IMG/VR virus record: IMGVR_UViG_3300046804_002762
Span: 1 to 64,000 of that record
Strand: one strand, 5' to 3'
DNA: 64,000 bases
From: a virus
Positions 17,968 to 47,828 of this stretch are shown in pieces. Made by a program: the position numbers and the translations under genes. Position 1 is the stretch's first letter. Every line of letters starts with the position of its first letter. Under the pieces are notes generated by a model. The model ran no database searches. It saw only the letters and a program-made list of their open reading frames with translations, and was not told where the DNA came from.

Positions 17968-18167
17968 GTGATAGAGCAAAAGAGTTTATGAGTTTCGTTT
18001 GGGACCAACGAAACAATCAAGGTGCTGATACTGAAGAGAAACTGGTTGCTGCTATTCTTTCAATCGCTGCTGAGTATGTAATATCATACAACGCACAAGA
18101 TGGTAGAGTAGTTTTGGATAAAAATGACATTCTACAACTTGCGGAGGAACTAAATAATAGTGCTTGA
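17964..18167 (+). CDS. Small helical hypothetical protein
   Basis: 67 residues, MSDRAKEFMSFVWDQRNNQ. It is entirely helical and its last codons overlap the 5' arm of the regulatory element in front of the GIY-YIG gene. ATGA overlap with the preceding gene. Confidence 0.65.
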   Translation: MSDRAKEFMSFVWDQRNNQGADTEEKLVAAILSIAAEYVISYNAQDGRVVLDKNDILQLAEELNNSA

Positions 18168-18246
18168 TTAAGTCGCATTTCTCAAGTGGAAGGGGGCATT
18201 TTGCCCTTTTCTTATATAAATAATATTGCGACTTAAATCAAAGCAG
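18151..18246 (+). promoter_or_regulatory. Homing-endonuclease leader element 1 (pseudoknot, hairpin, late promoter)
   Basis: CTTGA (18163-18167) pairs with TCAAG (18182-18186). The loop holds TTAAGTCGCA (18168-18177), which pairs with TGCGACTTAA (18227-18236), giving a pseudoknot. Inside lies a hairpin GGGCA/TGCCC (18194-18206) with a T run, then the late promoter TATAAATA (18215-18222). TAAATAATANTGC occurs on both sides (18151 and 18217). Matching elements lie at 31694, 37492 and 47195. Confidence 0.7.
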
Positions 18247-18858
18247 ATGGAATACTACACTTACGCATACCTGCGTGAAGATGGAACACCTTACTATATT
18301 GGTAAAGGTAAAAATCGCAGGGCTTTTGATAGGAAAAAGCACACCGTATTTGTTCCTTCTACAAACAGGATACTTTTATTGAAACAAAATCTAACAGAAG
18401 AAGAAGCATTTAGGCACGAAATCTATATGATTGGTGTGTTTGGTAGAAAAGATTTGGGAACTGGTATTCTTCATAATAAAACTGATGGAGGAGAAGGTTC
18501 AAGTGGATATAGGCATATTAATGAGTATAAAAATACAATTAGGCAAAAACAATTGAAACGATGGTCAAAGGAAGAAGAAAGAAATAAAATAACGGGTGAT
18601 AAAAATCCATTTTTTGGCAAAAAACACACTAAAGAAACAAAAGAAAAAATATCTGCTGATAGTAAATTGAGAACTAAAGGTTCTGATAATGGAAATTCAA
18701 AATCGTGGAAAATAACTTTTGAAAATGGAAAAGATGTAATTACTGATTGTATGAGTTCTTGGTGTAAAATAAATTCCTACAACTATTGGAGTGTCATAAA
18801 TGTGTATAAAAACCTTTCCAAAAATCACAAGGGTATTGTTTCCGTAATTCAATTGTGA
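18247..18858 (+). CDS. GIY-YIG homing endonuclease
   Basis: 203 residues from ATG 18247, 10 bases after the leader element; an upstream TTG at 18226 lies inside the stem and is unlikely. The catalytic start is YYTYAYLREDGTPYYIGKGK, followed by the Arg (KNRRAFDRKKH) and Glu (EEEAFRHEIYMIG) of the GIY-YIG nuclease core. A NUMOD3-like stretch (NPFFGKKHTKETKEKIS) and a helix-turn-helix-like end follow, as in segmental phage endonucleases. It cuts DNA to spread by homing. Confidence 0.85.
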   Translation: MEYYTYAYLREDGTPYYIGKGKNRRAFDRKKHTVFVPSTNRILLLKQNLTEEEAFRHEIYMIGVFGRKDLGTGILHNKTDGGEGSSGYRHINEYKNTIRQKQLKRWSKEEERNKITGDKNPFFGKKHTKETKEKISADSKLRTKGSDNGNSKSWKITFENGKDVITDCMSSWCKINSYNYWSVINVYKNLSKNHKGIVSVIQL

Positions 18859-27486: not shown

Positions 27487-27703
27487 AAAATTCTGTAAGG
27501 ATTGTAAATGGTATCGTAAATCCTGGATTGAACATATCTTTTTTAGAACTAATTCGTATGATATGTGTGCCTCTCCAAATACTACTGATGACCTTGTAAC
27601 TGGATATAAACAACGATTTTGTGATATGCTGAGAGCAAATCGTTGGAAAGAACTTGATTATGCTTGTGGTCCTGAAGGAAGATTTTTTGAGGAAAAGAAA
27701 TGA
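27479..27703 (+). CDS. Small zinc-ribbon-like protein
   Basis: 74 residues from ATG 27479 (an in-frame ATG at 27464 is possible). The start MTKKFCKDCKWYRKSW gives a CxxC, and DMCASPNT and FCDMLRAN give further cysteines, a pattern seen in small CxxC-W proteins of cyanophages that may bind zinc. Confidence 0.6.
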   Translation: MTKKFCKDCKWYRKSWIEHIFFRTNSYDMCASPNTTDDLVTGYKQRFCDMLRANRWKELDYACGPEGRFFEEKK

Positions 27704-27882
27704 AATGGATTAAGAATCCAGACGAGATTGTACTGGAGGATGTGAAGATGGTTCATTATGAGACAATGGAAGAAGGTCGTGCTGTGTGGTTGGGAATCTA
27801 TCTTAACAACGGTCAAATATTTCACTTAAACATTGGTGGTGATAATCTTTATGTTAATTATAGTGAGGAGACACCTGACTAA
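27700..27882 (+). CDS. Hypothetical protein
   Basis: 60 residues, MKWIKNPDEIVLEDVKMVHY; beta-rich with an acidic end. ATGA-coupled to the zinc-ribbon-like gene and followed by a promoter module. Confidence 0.55.
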   Translation: MKWIKNPDEIVLEDVKMVHYETMEEGRAVWLGIYLNNGQIFHLNIGGDNLYVNYSEETPD

Positions 27883-31581: not shown

Positions 31582-31696
31582 ATGTGATGTTGAGTATCCA
31601 CTTGACATTGAATACTTCCAACGTGTAAAATACTTTAAGGATGGATATAGTTTTTATTGCAATGAATGCGACAAACCTCCTAAAAAAGAAGAATAA
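31496..31696 (+). CDS. HNH-type zinc finger fragment protein
   Basis: 66 residues with CSKCDVEYPLDIEYF and FYCNECDK, two CxxC knuckles 30 residues apart. This C-x2-C ... C-x2-C layout usually opens small HNH or recombination-endonuclease-like proteins, but no catalytic part follows. The stop overlaps the direct repeat of the next leader element, so it could be a truncated gene. Confidence 0.5.
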   Translation: MLTLLTKILNTNLKNSKELERSTTRKCSKCDVEYPLDIEYFQRVKYFKDGYSFYCNECDKPPKKEE

Positions 31697-31797
31697 ATAA
31701 TTACACCTATTGAGACTGCAATTTCATAGGTAAGATTAGGTGCTCTTATGAGCACCTTTTCTATTATAAATATTAGTGCAGTCTCAATAGAATAGAA
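31694..31797 (+). promoter_or_regulatory. Homing-endonuclease leader element 2 (pseudoknot, hairpin, late promoter)
   Basis: CCTAT (31706-31710) pairs with ATAGG (31726-31730). The loop TGAGACTGCA (31711-31720) pairs with TGCAGTCTCA (31777-31786). The inner hairpin AGGTGCTC/GAGCACCT (31738-31757) ends in TTTT, and TATAAATA follows at 31765. The stems differ in sequence from elements 1, 3 and 4 but keep pairing. The gene starts 11 bases after the last arm. Confidence 0.75.
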
Positions 31798-32433
31798 ATG
31801 AATTATCTAAAGGTTTATTGTAATCTAATCAGGAAAGCAGAGAACAGAATTCCTCCTGAAGATTATACGGAAAAGCACCATATATTTCCAGTAAGCATTT
31901 ACGGAAAAAATGATAAAATTGCAATTCTTACTGGAAGAGAGCACTATATCGCACACGAATTGCTGGAAAGAATTTTTATAAAACGATATGGATTAAAGGA
32001 CAAAAGAACTATTAAAATGATAAACGCTGTTATTGCTATGAAAGGTAATGGTAATTATATTAATTCATATCTTTATGAGAAAAGTAGAAAAAGATTTTCA
32101 AATTCTTTAAAAAGTATTCCAAAATCGGAAGAGCATAGGAAGAAAATGTCAGAGGCTTCAAAAAGAAGATATGAGAATATGGAGGAAAGAAAAAAGACAT
32201 CAGAGCAGATGAAAAAATATCATAAAAATATTGATACAACTGGAAAAAATAATTCGAATTATAATAATGGATGTTATTATGAATTAACAAGTCCACTTGG
32301 AGAAATAGGTTATACGAATAAATTGGATGTTTTTTGTAAAAGAAATGATTTATCCAGGTCTGGTTTTTGGAAAGTCATAACATATAAACAAAAGAAAGAC
32401 CACAAAGGATGGTCGGTTAGAAAACTGGACTAA
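31798..32433 (+). CDS. HNH homing endonuclease
   Basis: 211 residues. The catalytic core is YTEKHHIFPVSIYGKNDKIA, then LTGREHYIAHELL, giving HH ... N/D ... H of the HNH motif near residues 27-60. A NUMOD3-like repeat (SEEHRKKMSEASKRRYEN) and a C-terminal helix-turn-helix-like end (RNDLSRSGFWKVI ... HKGW) follow. This is the form of free-standing phage homing endonucleases. The ATG is at 31798. Confidence 0.85.
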   Translation: MNYLKVYCNLIRKAENRIPPEDYTEKHHIFPVSIYGKNDKIAILTGREHYIAHELLERIFIKRYGLKDKRTIKMINAVIAMKGNGNYINSYLYEKSRKRFSNSLKSIPKSEEHRKKMSEASKRRYENMEERKKTSEQMKKYHKNIDTTGKNNSNYNNGCYYELTSPLGEIGYTNKLDVFCKRNDLSRSGFWKVITYKQKKDHKGWSVRKLD

Positions 32434-32436
32434 TAA

Positions 32437-32465
32437 TAGACAATCTGTAAAACCTGTGCTATGAT
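32437..32465 (+). promoter_or_regulatory. Sigma70-type promoter
   Basis: TAGACA (32437-32442), a 17-base spacer and TATGAT (32460-32465), just before the gene at 32489. Confidence 0.6.
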
Positions 32466-32488
32466 ATAGATACAAATTAATTAAACGG

Positions 32489-33136
32489 ATGGATTACAAA
32501 AAGTATTCTCTTGAAAATCTTGAGAAGTGGATTGAAGACGCAATCAATAGTAGTGAAGCATCGCCACAAGAAATTTATGATGTTATCAAAAATGTAGTGA
32601 GTGATAACTATTATTGCTACAAAAATCACACTGAAAGGTGTTATGAACTTCTTGCTCTTCTGAATGGTAATGGGAGGGGACATATTCCAGCATACGATGA
32701 ATATGTTGAGAAAAAAGAAAATCTTGTATGTGATAAAGATGATAAGTCTCCCAAGTGTCAAAAAGCATGGAGTGATTTTTGGGAAGAGAATTATTATCCT
32801 GAAGAGCATAATCAATACACTGAAGAAGAACTGAACGCAATGTGCGACAAGGCAGCATCAGACCAAGAAAAACAAAAGTGTCGTGAATATAACCTGCGTG
32901 AGGCAGAGTATTATGACAAGAGAGCAGAACTTGATGCTAAAAAAGATAAAGTAGTCAAATGGAAACTTCCTGTTGAGATTGATGGTATGAGCGGTGAGTA
33001 TTATGTTAACTTCCCTGATGACTTGATGGAAGCAGCAAATATTGGAGAGAATGATATGGTAGAATGGATAGATCAAGGCAATGGGTCATATTTTTTGCGT
33101 AAAGTAACTAAACCTATTGGAATTGATGAGTGCTGA
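32489..33136 (+). CDS. Hypothetical protein
   Basis: 215 residues, MDYKKYSLENLEKWIEDAIN. An N-terminal helical region (LENLEKWIEDAINSSEASPQ) that resembles a conserved phage N-domain, a Cys-containing acidic middle (CQKAW ... CDKAASD) and a C-terminal beta unit (YVNFPDDLMEAANIGENDMV) like an AbrB/MazE-type swapped-hairpin segment. The last part suggests DNA binding, but this is tentative. Confidence 0.6.
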   Translation: MDYKKYSLENLEKWIEDAINSSEASPQEIYDVIKNVVSDNYYCYKNHTERCYELLALLNGNGRGHIPAYDEYVEKKENLVCDKDDKSPKCQKAWSDFWEENYYPEEHNQYTEEELNAMCDKAASDQEKQKCREYNLREAEYYDKRAELDAKKDKVVKWKLPVEIDGMSGEYYVNFPDDLMEAANIGENDMVEWIDQGNGSYFLRKVTKPIGIDEC

Positions 33137-37487: not shown

Positions 37488-37491
37488 TACA

Positions 37492-37593
37492 TAAATAATG
37501 ATGCCTTAATTGACTCGCATCTTTAAGGTTGGAGAGGAGAAATCCTCTCCTTTTAATATAAATAATACTGCGAGTCAATTTAAGAGCAGAACT
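37492..37593 (+). promoter_or_regulatory. Homing-endonuclease leader element 3 (pseudoknot, hairpin, late promoter)
   Basis: CCTTAA (37504-37509) pairs with TTAAGG (37523-37528). The loop TTGACTCGCA (37510-37519) pairs with TGCGAGTCAA (37569-37578). The inner hairpin GGAGAGGA-GAAA-TCCTCTCC (37531-37550) has a GNRA loop and a T run; TATAAATAA follows at 37557. About 95% identical over ~95 bases to the element at 47195. It precedes only a gene stub. Confidence 0.75.
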
Positions 37594-37687
37594 ATGGAAA
37601 TCCAAAAGAGTATTACTATACCTATTATTCTTATGAAGAATGGGGTAGAGGATATATTGGCAGTATGGGAAAGAATTGATAAAAACT
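37579..37687 (+). pseudogene. GIY-YIG homing endonuclease stub
   Basis: The frame from about 37611 reads YYYTYYSYEEWGRGYIGSMG and KN before a stop, the start of a GIY-YIG domain (compare [20 protein letters not shown] at 18247). The ATG at 37594 is out of this frame, and the rest of the gene is absent: the sequence runs straight into a TTTGGGGCCTTGAAAGTGTT box. It is best explained as a deletion remnant. Confidence 0.7.
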
Positions 37688-37716
37688 TTGGGGCCTTGAA
37701 AGTGTTCTAATAATGT
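37686..37716 (+). promoter_or_regulatory. 32-nt box, degenerate copy (box 1)
   Basis: CTTTGGGGCCTTGAAAGTGTTC, then TAATAATGT in place of TATAGTATG. First of 16 copies. It abuts the GIY-YIG stub and precedes the gene at 37733. Confidence 0.65.
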
Positions 37717-47050: not shown

Positions 47051-47194
47051 GTGAAATACGAAGTTAAAATGTATCAAGGTGGAAGAACTTTCGTTGAAGA
47101 AGTTTATGCTCCTGACCCCAAATCTGCAAGAGAGACTGCACAAGTTCGCAATCCTTCGTGTAAAGTTATTGGAGTAAATGTTTCTTTCAAGTAA
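47051..47194 (+). CDS. Small protein with GTG start
   Basis: 47 residues from GTG 47051, reading MKYEVKMYQGGRTFVEEVYA and ending VIGVNVSFK. A beta-alpha-beta pattern (ARETAQVRNPSCKVIGVNV) I recall from short cyanophage proteins. Its TAA overlaps the direct repeat of leader element 4. Confidence 0.6.
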   Translation: MKYEVKMYQGGRTFVEEVYAPDPKSARETAQVRNPSCKVIGVNVSFK

Positions 47195-47294
47195 TAAATA
47201 ATGATGCCTTAACTGACTCGCATCTTTAAGGTTGGAGAGGAGAAATCCTCTCCTTTTAGTATAAATAATACTGCGAGTCATTTCAAGAGCAGTT
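47195..47294 (+). promoter_or_regulatory. Homing-endonuclease leader element 4 (pseudoknot, hairpin, late promoter)
   Basis: CCTTAA (47207-47212) with TTAAGG (47226-47231); loop TGACTCGCA (47214-47222) with TGCGAGTCA (47272-47280); hairpin GGAGAGGA-GAAA-TCCTCTCC (47234-47253); TATAAATAA at 47260. Near-identical to element 3, ten kilobases away. The gene starts 14 bases after the last arm. Confidence 0.75.
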
Positions 47295-47828
47295 ATGCAA
47301 AAAGTAAGCGTTCAAGCATTGAACGAATGTTTCAATGTATCTGGCCCCGATTATGTTGAAATGCCTGAAGATTGGAAAGATGTTGGTAATGAGTATCTAT
47401 CAATTTTAGCAAGTAAAGCAGGTAAAATAAGTGCAGAAGTACAGAGAGAAAATCAAATAGGTATTTTTTCATTAACAAAAGAAGATAGGGTGAAAAATGG
47501 AAGAAAGGGAGGTTTAATTTCTGGAAATAATAATAAGAAAAACAAAACGGGTTTCTGTGGAAGAAGTAAAGAAAAGATGAGTATAGATGGTAGAAAAGCG
47601 GGAAAAATAGGAGGAAAAGTTAATGGCAAATTAACTTACGAAAATAAAACTGGTATTCACGGATTATCTAAAGAAGAAACAAAAAGAAATGCAAGTATGG
47701 GAGGAAAAGTAATAAGTTCTCAAAGATGGAAATGTTTAGTTACGGGATTTATTTCAACCGCTGGTGCATTAGGAAATTATCAAAAAGCAAGAGGAATTGA
47801 TACTTCGCAGAGAGTAAGAGTTGAATAA
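47295..47828 (+). CDS. NUMOD-repeat homing endonuclease-like protein without nuclease core
   Basis: 177 residues. It contains repeated IGIFSLTKEDRVKNGRKGG and TGIHGLSKEETKRNASMGGK units and ends RWKCLVTGFISTAGALGNYQ then KARGIDTSQRVR. These are DNA-binding repeats and the C-terminal signature of cyanophage HNH/NUMOD endonucleases, but no HNH or GIY-YIG core is visible in the short N-terminus. It may be a fragment that lost its nuclease, or use a core I cannot recognise. Confidence 0.65.
   Translation: MQKVSVQALNECFNVSGPDYVEMPEDWKDVGNEYLSILASKAGKISAEVQRENQIGIFSLTKEDRVKNGRKGGLISGNNNKKNKTGFCGRSKEKMSIDGRKAGKIGGKVNGKLTYENKTGIHGLSKEETKRNASMGGKVISSQRWKCLVTGFISTAGALGNYQKARGIDTSQRVRVE

Follow-up and report, generated by a model that had tools for sequence, protein, structure and literature searches.

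A covarying leader with two late-type promoter boxes precedes mobile nuclease genes in T4-like cyanophages and may encode a same-strand antisense RNA

Free-standing homing endonucleases are common in phages, and one study names their transcriptional and translational regulation as still largely unknown (PMC2988022). In that study an RNA structure is reported to hide the start of the T4 I-TevI gene, with a late promoter inside the structure, and a similar arrangement is given for I-TevII, I-TevIII, segB and mobE of Aeh1 (PMC2988022). Judged against that text, the leader described here resembles the I-TevI group in its association with homing endonuclease genes, in the late-type promoter within the structure and in a predicted late RNA without the 5' arm, but differs from those hairpins at single genes in having a second upstream box, an inner terminator-like hairpin and a third covarying arm, and in that one leader is common to unrelated nuclease families (PMC2988022). 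For the RNA-OUT of IS10, copy-dependent control is reported (PMC5006887). Like the RNA-OUT/RNA-IN pair as portrayed there, our leader is predicted to yield a short RNA that complements the region around the translation start in the mRNA for a mobile element's enzyme; RNA-OUT, however, is encoded on the opposite strand and matches over its first 35 nt, whereas here the RNA would come from the same strand, upstream, and match over about 10-15 nt by way of an inverted repeat (PMC5006887). Complementarity of the predicted RNA to the start region is indeed present, in S2 plus the third arm, and opposite-strand coding of the IS10 type was not found; because the putative RNA gene lies on the same strand, upstream of its target, the leader would work like RNA-OUT without being a member of its kind. 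The c4 RNA of phages P1 and P7 is processed from its operon's transcript, unlike the leader RNA, for which a promoter and a terminator of its own are predicted. The likeness to c4 is that of a phage antisense RNA whose gene lies in the operon of its target (PMC2864571, PMC8198154). A T4-like cyanophage, S-PM2, also has a regulatory RNA, CfrI, next to the gene of a homing endonuclease, but it is about 225 nt long, lies on the antisense strand and is linked to psbA, and it does not share the architecture of our leader (PMC2984593, PMC5931967, PMC12197685). Neither c4 (RF01695) nor any other Rfam family matched the DNA studied here at gathering score; the first of the leaders yielded three hits, each scoring far under its cut-off (E about 1 or above), and one copy of the class II leader described below gave none. 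HDV-like and riboswitch readings were dropped on topology alone, Rfam being without a match. The parts of the leader thus have known parallels (T4 I-TevI, IS10 RNA-OUT, P1 c4), and their combination was not found described in titles and abstracts of the open literature, a search largely outside subscription papers and so only weak evidence of absence.

The window analysed comprises bases 1-64000 of a 95,680-base IMG/VR virus record, and the closest annotated relative to emerge was Synechococcus phage S-SRM01 (Kyanoviridae, 240,842 bp), in which 11% of the first 25 kb of the window is matched at 76% identity. A preliminary description of this DNA had proposed that one leader architecture recurs at four sites, and all four copies are present where it had placed them, with S1 starting at 18163, 31706, 37504 and 47207. 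The parts follow in the order box [AC]TAAATA, 5' arm of stem S1 (S1-5'), 5' arm of stem S2 (S2-5'), 3-5 nt, S1-3', hairpin with T run, box TATAAATA and S2-3', and in the window leaders the start codon lies 10-15 nt beyond S2-3'. We call the outer and inner boxes P1 and P2, and for their predicted starts we assume the box-to-start distance of T4. All features given below are on the plus strand, and the hairpins are predicted folds. At site 1 the late-promoter-like outer box, CTAAATA, occupies 18150-18156 (predicted start 18162) and is followed by S1-5' CTTGA (18163-18167), S2-5' TTAAGTCGCA (18168-18177), S1-3' TCAAG (18182-18186), the terminator-like hairpin with its T run (18188-18212), the inner box TATAAATA (18215-18222, predicted start 18228) and S2-3' TGCGACTTAA (18227-18236), which with the third arm ATCAAA fills 18227-18242; a NUMOD3/GIY-YIG-type homing endonuclease gene, recognised by Pfam and PHROG, follows at 18247-18858. 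Site 2 has its outer box ATAAATA at 31693-31699 (predicted start 31705), S1-5' CCTAT and S2-5' TGAGACTGCA at 31706-31720, S1-3' ATAGG at 31726-31730, the hairpin at 31738-31757 with the remaining T run (31738-31761 in all), TATAAATA at 31765-31772 (predicted start 31778), S2-3' TGCAGTCTCA and third arm ATAGA at 31777-31791, and an HNH-like homing endonuclease gene (PHROG and HNH matches) at 31798-32433. At site 3 the outer box ATAAATA (37491-37497, predicted start 37503) precedes S1-5' CCTTAA, S2-5' TTGACTCGCA (37510-37519) and S1-3' TTAAGG (37523-37528), together 37504-37528; then come the hairpin (37531-37550, with T run 37531-37554), TATAAATA (37557-37564, predicted start 37570), S2-3' TGCGAGTCAA with third arm TTTAAG (37569-37584) and a short ORF (37594-37710) whose DNA reads as a frameshifted, truncated GIY-YIG relic. 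Site 4 repeats this layout with outer box ATAAATA at 47194-47200 (predicted start 47206), S1-5' CCTTAA, S2-5' TGACTCGCA (47214-47222) and S1-3' TTAAGG (47226-47231) within 47207-47231, the hairpin at 47234-47253 (with T run 47234-47257), TATAAATA at 47260-47267 (predicted start 47273), S2-3' TGCGAGTCA and third arm TTTCAAG at 47272-47287, and a gene for a putative mobile nuclease of 177 aa, linked by phmmer to other nucleases, at 47295-47828. Read from the sequence, S2 pairs over 10, 10, 10 and 9 bp at sites 1 to 4, and S1 over 5, 5, 6 and 6 bp. An exact scan (S1 of 5 nt, S2 of 8 nt, ATAAATA box) finds 4 such elements in the window, compared with a mean of 0.08 in 50 windows simulated by a first-order Markov model (one strand), and the remainder of the 95,680-base record holds no further leader copy. 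Sites 3 and 4 are near-duplicates, so that the window alone provides three independent stem sequences.

The four copies had been said to precede GIY-YIG, HNH or NUMOD genes or a stub of one, and this agrees with what the searches and the reading of the sequence give, namely a NUMOD3 protein, an HNH-like protein, a GIY-YIG relic and a protein joined to nucleases by phmmer. The site 1 protein matches NUMOD3 (Pfam, E 1e-7) and a homing endonuclease PHROG (E 1e-11), and the site 2 protein matches homing endonuclease PHROG 655 (E 3e-31) and, weakly, HNH (E 1e-4). The site 3 short ORF has no Pfam match; the site 4 protein has no PHROG match and in Pfam merely one sub-threshold, irrelevant match, but phmmer joins it to the other leader nucleases, and a relative of it behind another leader copy (L064) matches an HNH PHROG (E 1e-4). 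From 102 leader copies chosen regardless of gene, with three positional candidates without S2 removed beforehand, we scanned 56 downstream ORFs, hand-picked, distinct and mostly complete, and single-linkage clustering by phmmer (E < 1e-5) puts 46 of them together in a group of GIY-YIG, HNH and NUMOD proteins. The ten outside it include three of one family, in which L120 matches a PHROG of homing endonucleases (E 1e-6), one protein like endonuclease VII, four of HNH or homing types (L041, L053, L063, L128), one with merely a weak PD-(D/E)XK match (L026:11591-12019) and one TnpB. This last protein (L095) matches guided_TnpB at E 2e-98, above cut-off, and IS200_TnpB at E 3e-121, below the cut-off of that model. 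A search with it returned 17 loci, 16 of them with upstream sequence, a locus with 4 nt upstream (L218) being left out, and by eye 13 of these 16 phage TnpB genes carry the leader, some of the 13 being near-identical. In six of the 13 TnpB leaders, by eye, P2 reads CTAAATA, which supports the C variant of the box. The 243-kb contig IMGVR_UViG_3300042560_001323 holds five TnpB matches (L213, L216, L220, L222, L225), four of them behind a leader; on this cyanophage contig they are, from their sequences, a predicted multicopy RNA-guided nuclease in a phage.

The recurrence noticed in the window is correct and larger than first stated, as the same leader precedes mobile nuclease genes in many cyanophage contigs. 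A pattern made only of the hairpin end, P2 and TGC finds at least 118 stretches in viral contigs; it biases those columns of the set so chosen and leaves the P1 columns unbiased. A second set was chosen by similarity to the site 1 nuclease alone, the best 80 of 274 relatives giving 61 distinct upstream regions, and both TAAATA boxes occur in 58 of these, 62-84 nt apart; of the remaining three, two (L143, L160) have a class II leader and one (L155) neither kind. The site 2 HNH protein, used as query, found one relative among viral contigs. S-SRM01 carries at least six further leader copies of the window class, and also nuclease genes without the leader. In 16 records with loci of interest the two-box pattern occurs 37 times, spread over 12 of the records, and the same pattern reversed occurs twice. 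By eye, a class I leader, that of the window, stands before the examined gene in the isolates S-SRM01, B23, S-B68 and MC09, and in S-CREM2 with a degenerate P1; Sf-CH5 has a class II leader there, and S-N03, RN05-S and two ACG-2014f records show no leader before the examined gene. A scan of newly fetched loci that was blind to structure, gene and terminator, asking only for two ATAAATA....TG boxes, gave 99 box pairs among the matches listed, with S2 core pairing of 8-9/9 in 30, 7/9 in 5 and at most 6/9 in 64, so that two boxes alone do not suffice for the element. Among the listed pairs with 8-9/9, 27 of the 30 ORFs start, by eye, like leader nucleases, and in the exceptions (L315, L348 with 2 codons, L372) the ORF start is unlike nucleases or not tellable.

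A late-type promoter inside the leader had been proposed and is borne out by the box TATAAATA, which lies between the S2 arms at 4/4 window sites; a cyanophage late motif, NATAAATA, is reported in earlier work (PMC2984593). What had been described as a TAAATAAT repeat at the upstream end has the look of another late promoter, P1, with its predicted start at S1; S1 in fact begins at, or adjoins, that position. In the protein-chosen set P1 reads TAAATA preceded by A (43) or C (15), with T as fifth following base in 55/58 and a purine as sixth in 56/58, and P2 reads ATAAATA preceded by T in 53, with the corresponding counts 56/58 and 58/58. P1 is also present in 84 of 88 pattern-chosen candidates among the matches listed, with a purine at the sixth base in 82/84, and the four candidates without it are visibly not elements. 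The proposed terminator-like hairpin also withstood comparison, since a fold of -8 kcal/mol or below lies between the boxes in 58/58 natural sequences against 4/58 mononucleotide shuffles. A run of at least three T within 15 nt before P2 occurs in 49/58; of the nine leaders without one, six have a hairpin that directly adjoins P2. Asking more strictly for at least 4 T among the 8 nt that follow the last predicted pair leaves 16/58, a low figure because the folds pair the T run with upstream A.

The claim that the stems covary at the RNA level holds, and does so on copies outside the window. Arms were taken by position relative to both boxes, and the arms of each element were compared with those of other elements, as a guard against circularity. 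A covariance model built from an alignment was dropped, MAFFT having put S2 out of register (site 2 one base off the other three), and an own-versus-other permutation and an anchored pair table were used in its place; the permutation does not model descent, and adjacent regions served as controls instead. In 21 non-redundant protein-chosen members, own against permuted pairing gave z = 11.6 for S2, 5.1 for S1-5' with S1-3' and 6.2 for S1-5' with the region between S2-3' and the start codon, each with 0/2000 permutations reaching the observed value, and the controls gave 0.6 just upstream of the element and 1.4 just inside the gene. With 33 positional elements from all loci the corresponding values were 20.4, 5.8 and 5.7, and 1.6 and 0.8 for the controls. 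In 42 diverse elements (similarity below 0.80) S2 covaries at ten of ten pairs, each position having changed on both sides in 11-25 sequences with standard pairs kept in 38-42 of the 42; the S2-5' register in this table was picked as the best among 21 offsets, a choice somewhat in favour of pairing, and the cross-assigned control had the same freedom (20 offsets). At least 7 of 9 S2 pairs form between own arms in 199/199 positional elements against about 14% for cross-assigned arms, a figure valid solely for loci fetched for nucleases or the element. Non-Watson-Crick S2 positions in these 199 comprise 49 G-U, 8 A-C and 14 other, and the excess of G-U over A-C indicates that the transcribed strand folds as RNA. 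This wobble bias bears on the suggestion that the leader acts as DNA, as an operator or recognition site of the encoded nucleases, its repeats being protein-binding sites or insertion ends: I-TevI does bind an operator over its own late promoter (PMC2988022), and the leader lies inside the inserted unit, but the bias points to RNA from one strand, and one leader serves GIY-YIG, HNH and TnpB nucleases while the S2 sequence varies freely, which makes this suggestion very improbable.

A third covarying arm beside the start codon is present that the preliminary description had missed, and its claim of a fixed pseudoknot found no support. S1 and S2 both covary, as a classical H-type pseudoknot would have it, yet S1-5' covaries with the third arm as strongly as with S1-3', and it therefore has two selected partners. 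The two partners argue, from sequence and predicted folds, for strand exchange rather than for a fixed pseudoknot. When the read-through RNAs of the four window sites are folded without pseudoknots, the nested minimum-energy structures contain the long helix with the third arm; the structure they place over the ribosome-binding region is a prediction of folding, and its third arm covaries. The predicted duplexes between short RNA and mRNA have energies of -19.3, -23.3, -22.6 and -18.7 kcal/mol at sites 1 to 4, and that of site 2 comprises 13 unbroken bp.

Our best reading, to which we give a probability of about 0.55, is that a same-strand antisense RNA acts together with T4-type silencing of read-through mRNA, in a portable leader of mobile nuclease cassettes of T4-like cyanophages. 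The leader would hold two tandem late-type promoters, whose activity we infer from the boxes. From P1, transcription would start at the foot of S1 and give a short RNA (53-60 nt long for the four window leaders) that would end at the hairpin and T run and display S2-5' in the loop of its own 5' hairpin. The mRNA of the nuclease would arise at P2; it would open with ~10 nt (S2-3') complementary to the loop of the short RNA, followed by a partial repeat of S1-3'. Once the loop has paired, S1-5' could swap S1-3' for the third arm, giving a helix of up to about 15 bp beside the start codon that would block translation of the nuclease in trans. In RNA that polymerase extends from upstream through the leader, these arms may fold in cis and silence the gene, as for T4 I-TevI. 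In favour of this reading, P1 bears the promoter signature of P2 in a set picked by protein alone; the hairpin between the boxes, S2 pairing along the first bases of the predicted mRNA, the two covarying partners of S1-5', the predicted duplexes and the wobble bias also speak for it.

Control in cis only, as in T4, would have early or middle read-through RNA fold into the long hairpin that hides the start, while late RNA from P2, without the arms, is translated; P1 would then be silent or add silenced read-through RNA, and S1 would be a folding intermediate or part of a pseudoknot. This was in essence the model first put forward, and parts of it stand, as a late-type promoter lies inside the leader, the folds of read-through RNA hide the start region at the window sites and the mechanism is reported for T4 I-TevI (PMC2988022), with no new RNA required. 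By mRNA position, S2 pairing in the 42 elements is 95-100% from +1 to +9, 83% at -1 and 14-57% from -2 to -5; at -1 the promoter T faces A in 31/42, and the pairing there in 35/42 covers a base present solely in read-through RNA, which also suits control in cis. Constraints of the promoter on positions -5 to -1 might alone account for the end of S2 pairing in that stretch. Control in cis alone leaves the second box unexplained, conserved like P2 with T at -1 and a purine at +1, and the terminator-like hairpin would stop the very RNA that is meant to be silenced; we regard it as a serious but less probable account.

Several observations weigh against a trans-acting RNA. P1 is degenerate in S-CREM2, 16 of 30 class II leaders lack P1 (by eye), and 6/58 hairpins have no T run. 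No convincing orphan small-RNA unit was found by eye among 19 candidates without an exact 7-nt S2 partner, and among the 18 listed, ten have a second box and wobble or mismatch variants of S2. The arms of elements that share a contig showed no separation from one another (67 elements from 28 loci or genomes that have several), and off-target pairing amounts to -9.0 kcal/mol within and -9.5 between contigs; pairing within a contig, taken as no weaker than between contigs, gives no sign of selection against cross-talk. The predicted duplex of the site 3 RNA with the site 4 mRNA (-19.4 kcal/mol) compares with -18.7 for site 4's own RNA. It is conceivable, if somewhat short of an even chance, that unrelated cyanophage nucleases (GIY-YIG, HNH, TnpB) share a portable unit with a same-strand trans RNA, so that expression would fall as copies accumulate and cassettes, broken ones included, would silence one another.

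The finding of one covarying leader before unrelated nuclease families, moving with them, makes the shared trait look to be the control unit rather than the enzyme. A short RNA, should it exist, would be a same-strand antisense system, possibly one that senses copies; should it not, the leader would still be a widespread timing control in cyanophages. Silencing the message of a cutting enzyme may let selfish genes spread without harm to the virus. The leader can be tested in the cultured isolates S-SRM01, B23 and S-B68, and its arms, which vary freely while pairing holds, provide a natural set of matched RNA pairs.

That the leader travels with the endonuclease, as had been suggested, is upheld by empty sites, which show it within the inserted unit. 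With an upstream flank at least 80% identical over at least 120 nt as the criterion, an empty site in another locus was found for 36 of 165 cassettes with enough flank, so the insertion is polymorphic. Upstream homology stops at most 39 nt from the P1 box, or at most 9 nt into it, in 27/36, the downstream edge being less sharp. The window itself, at 27690-27706, is the empty site for the leader-nuclease cassette of L046, with flanks 91% identical. Strong sigma-70-like promoters lie within 115 nt after the nuclease stop in 28% of 144 cases, whereas the share is 5% in 2880 random windows and 9% at the ends of 269 ordinary ORFs, and a cassette may, to judge from these predicted promoters, restart early transcription of the operon that it interrupts. 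The stretch at 32433-32548 of the window is one example surveyed. This enrichment, together with the terminator-like hairpins, would fit a leader that is a transcription insulator only, in which transcripts from upstream would end at the terminator, the nuclease would be expressed from P2, the operon would resume from a promoter further downstream and the arms would matter little; the ten S2 pairs, each changed on both sides in many of the 42 elements, cannot be neutral, however, so that we hold insulation as the sole function to be the least probable of all these readings, and it may be one function among several.

A second form of the leader, class II, was seen before GIY-YIG genes (L007:27781-27863, L040:2040-2120, L119, L143, L160, L230). 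It has a G+C-rich S1 (TGGGCAGCAAC / GTTGCGTAAGTCCCA) with S2-5' in the loop, a T run directly after and then P2, S2-3' sitting at the start codon, and by eye it is present in 30 of 38 sequences with the 13-mer. Its hairpin motif (GGGCRGC ... TGCGTAAGTCCCA) also stands before other genes without S2 or P2 (L274, L275, L285, L289, L298, L307), where it is perhaps a separate RNA motif. In S-SRM01 the starts of two endonuclease VII genes are each directly preceded by a simple hairpin whose loop holds a late-type box, with no S1 (L008:26521-26572, L008:42650-42706), which we take to be similar in kind to that of T4 gene 49. The gene at MW015081.1:62515-63273 (S-SRM01), annotated 'translation initiation factor 2', encodes a GIY-YIG-type homing endonuclease with six NUMOD3 stretches (Pfam), and the same annotation is carried by GIY-YIG-type homing endonuclease genes of B23 (MN695335.1:41542-42165) and Sf-CH5 (PV340852.1:156271-156693).
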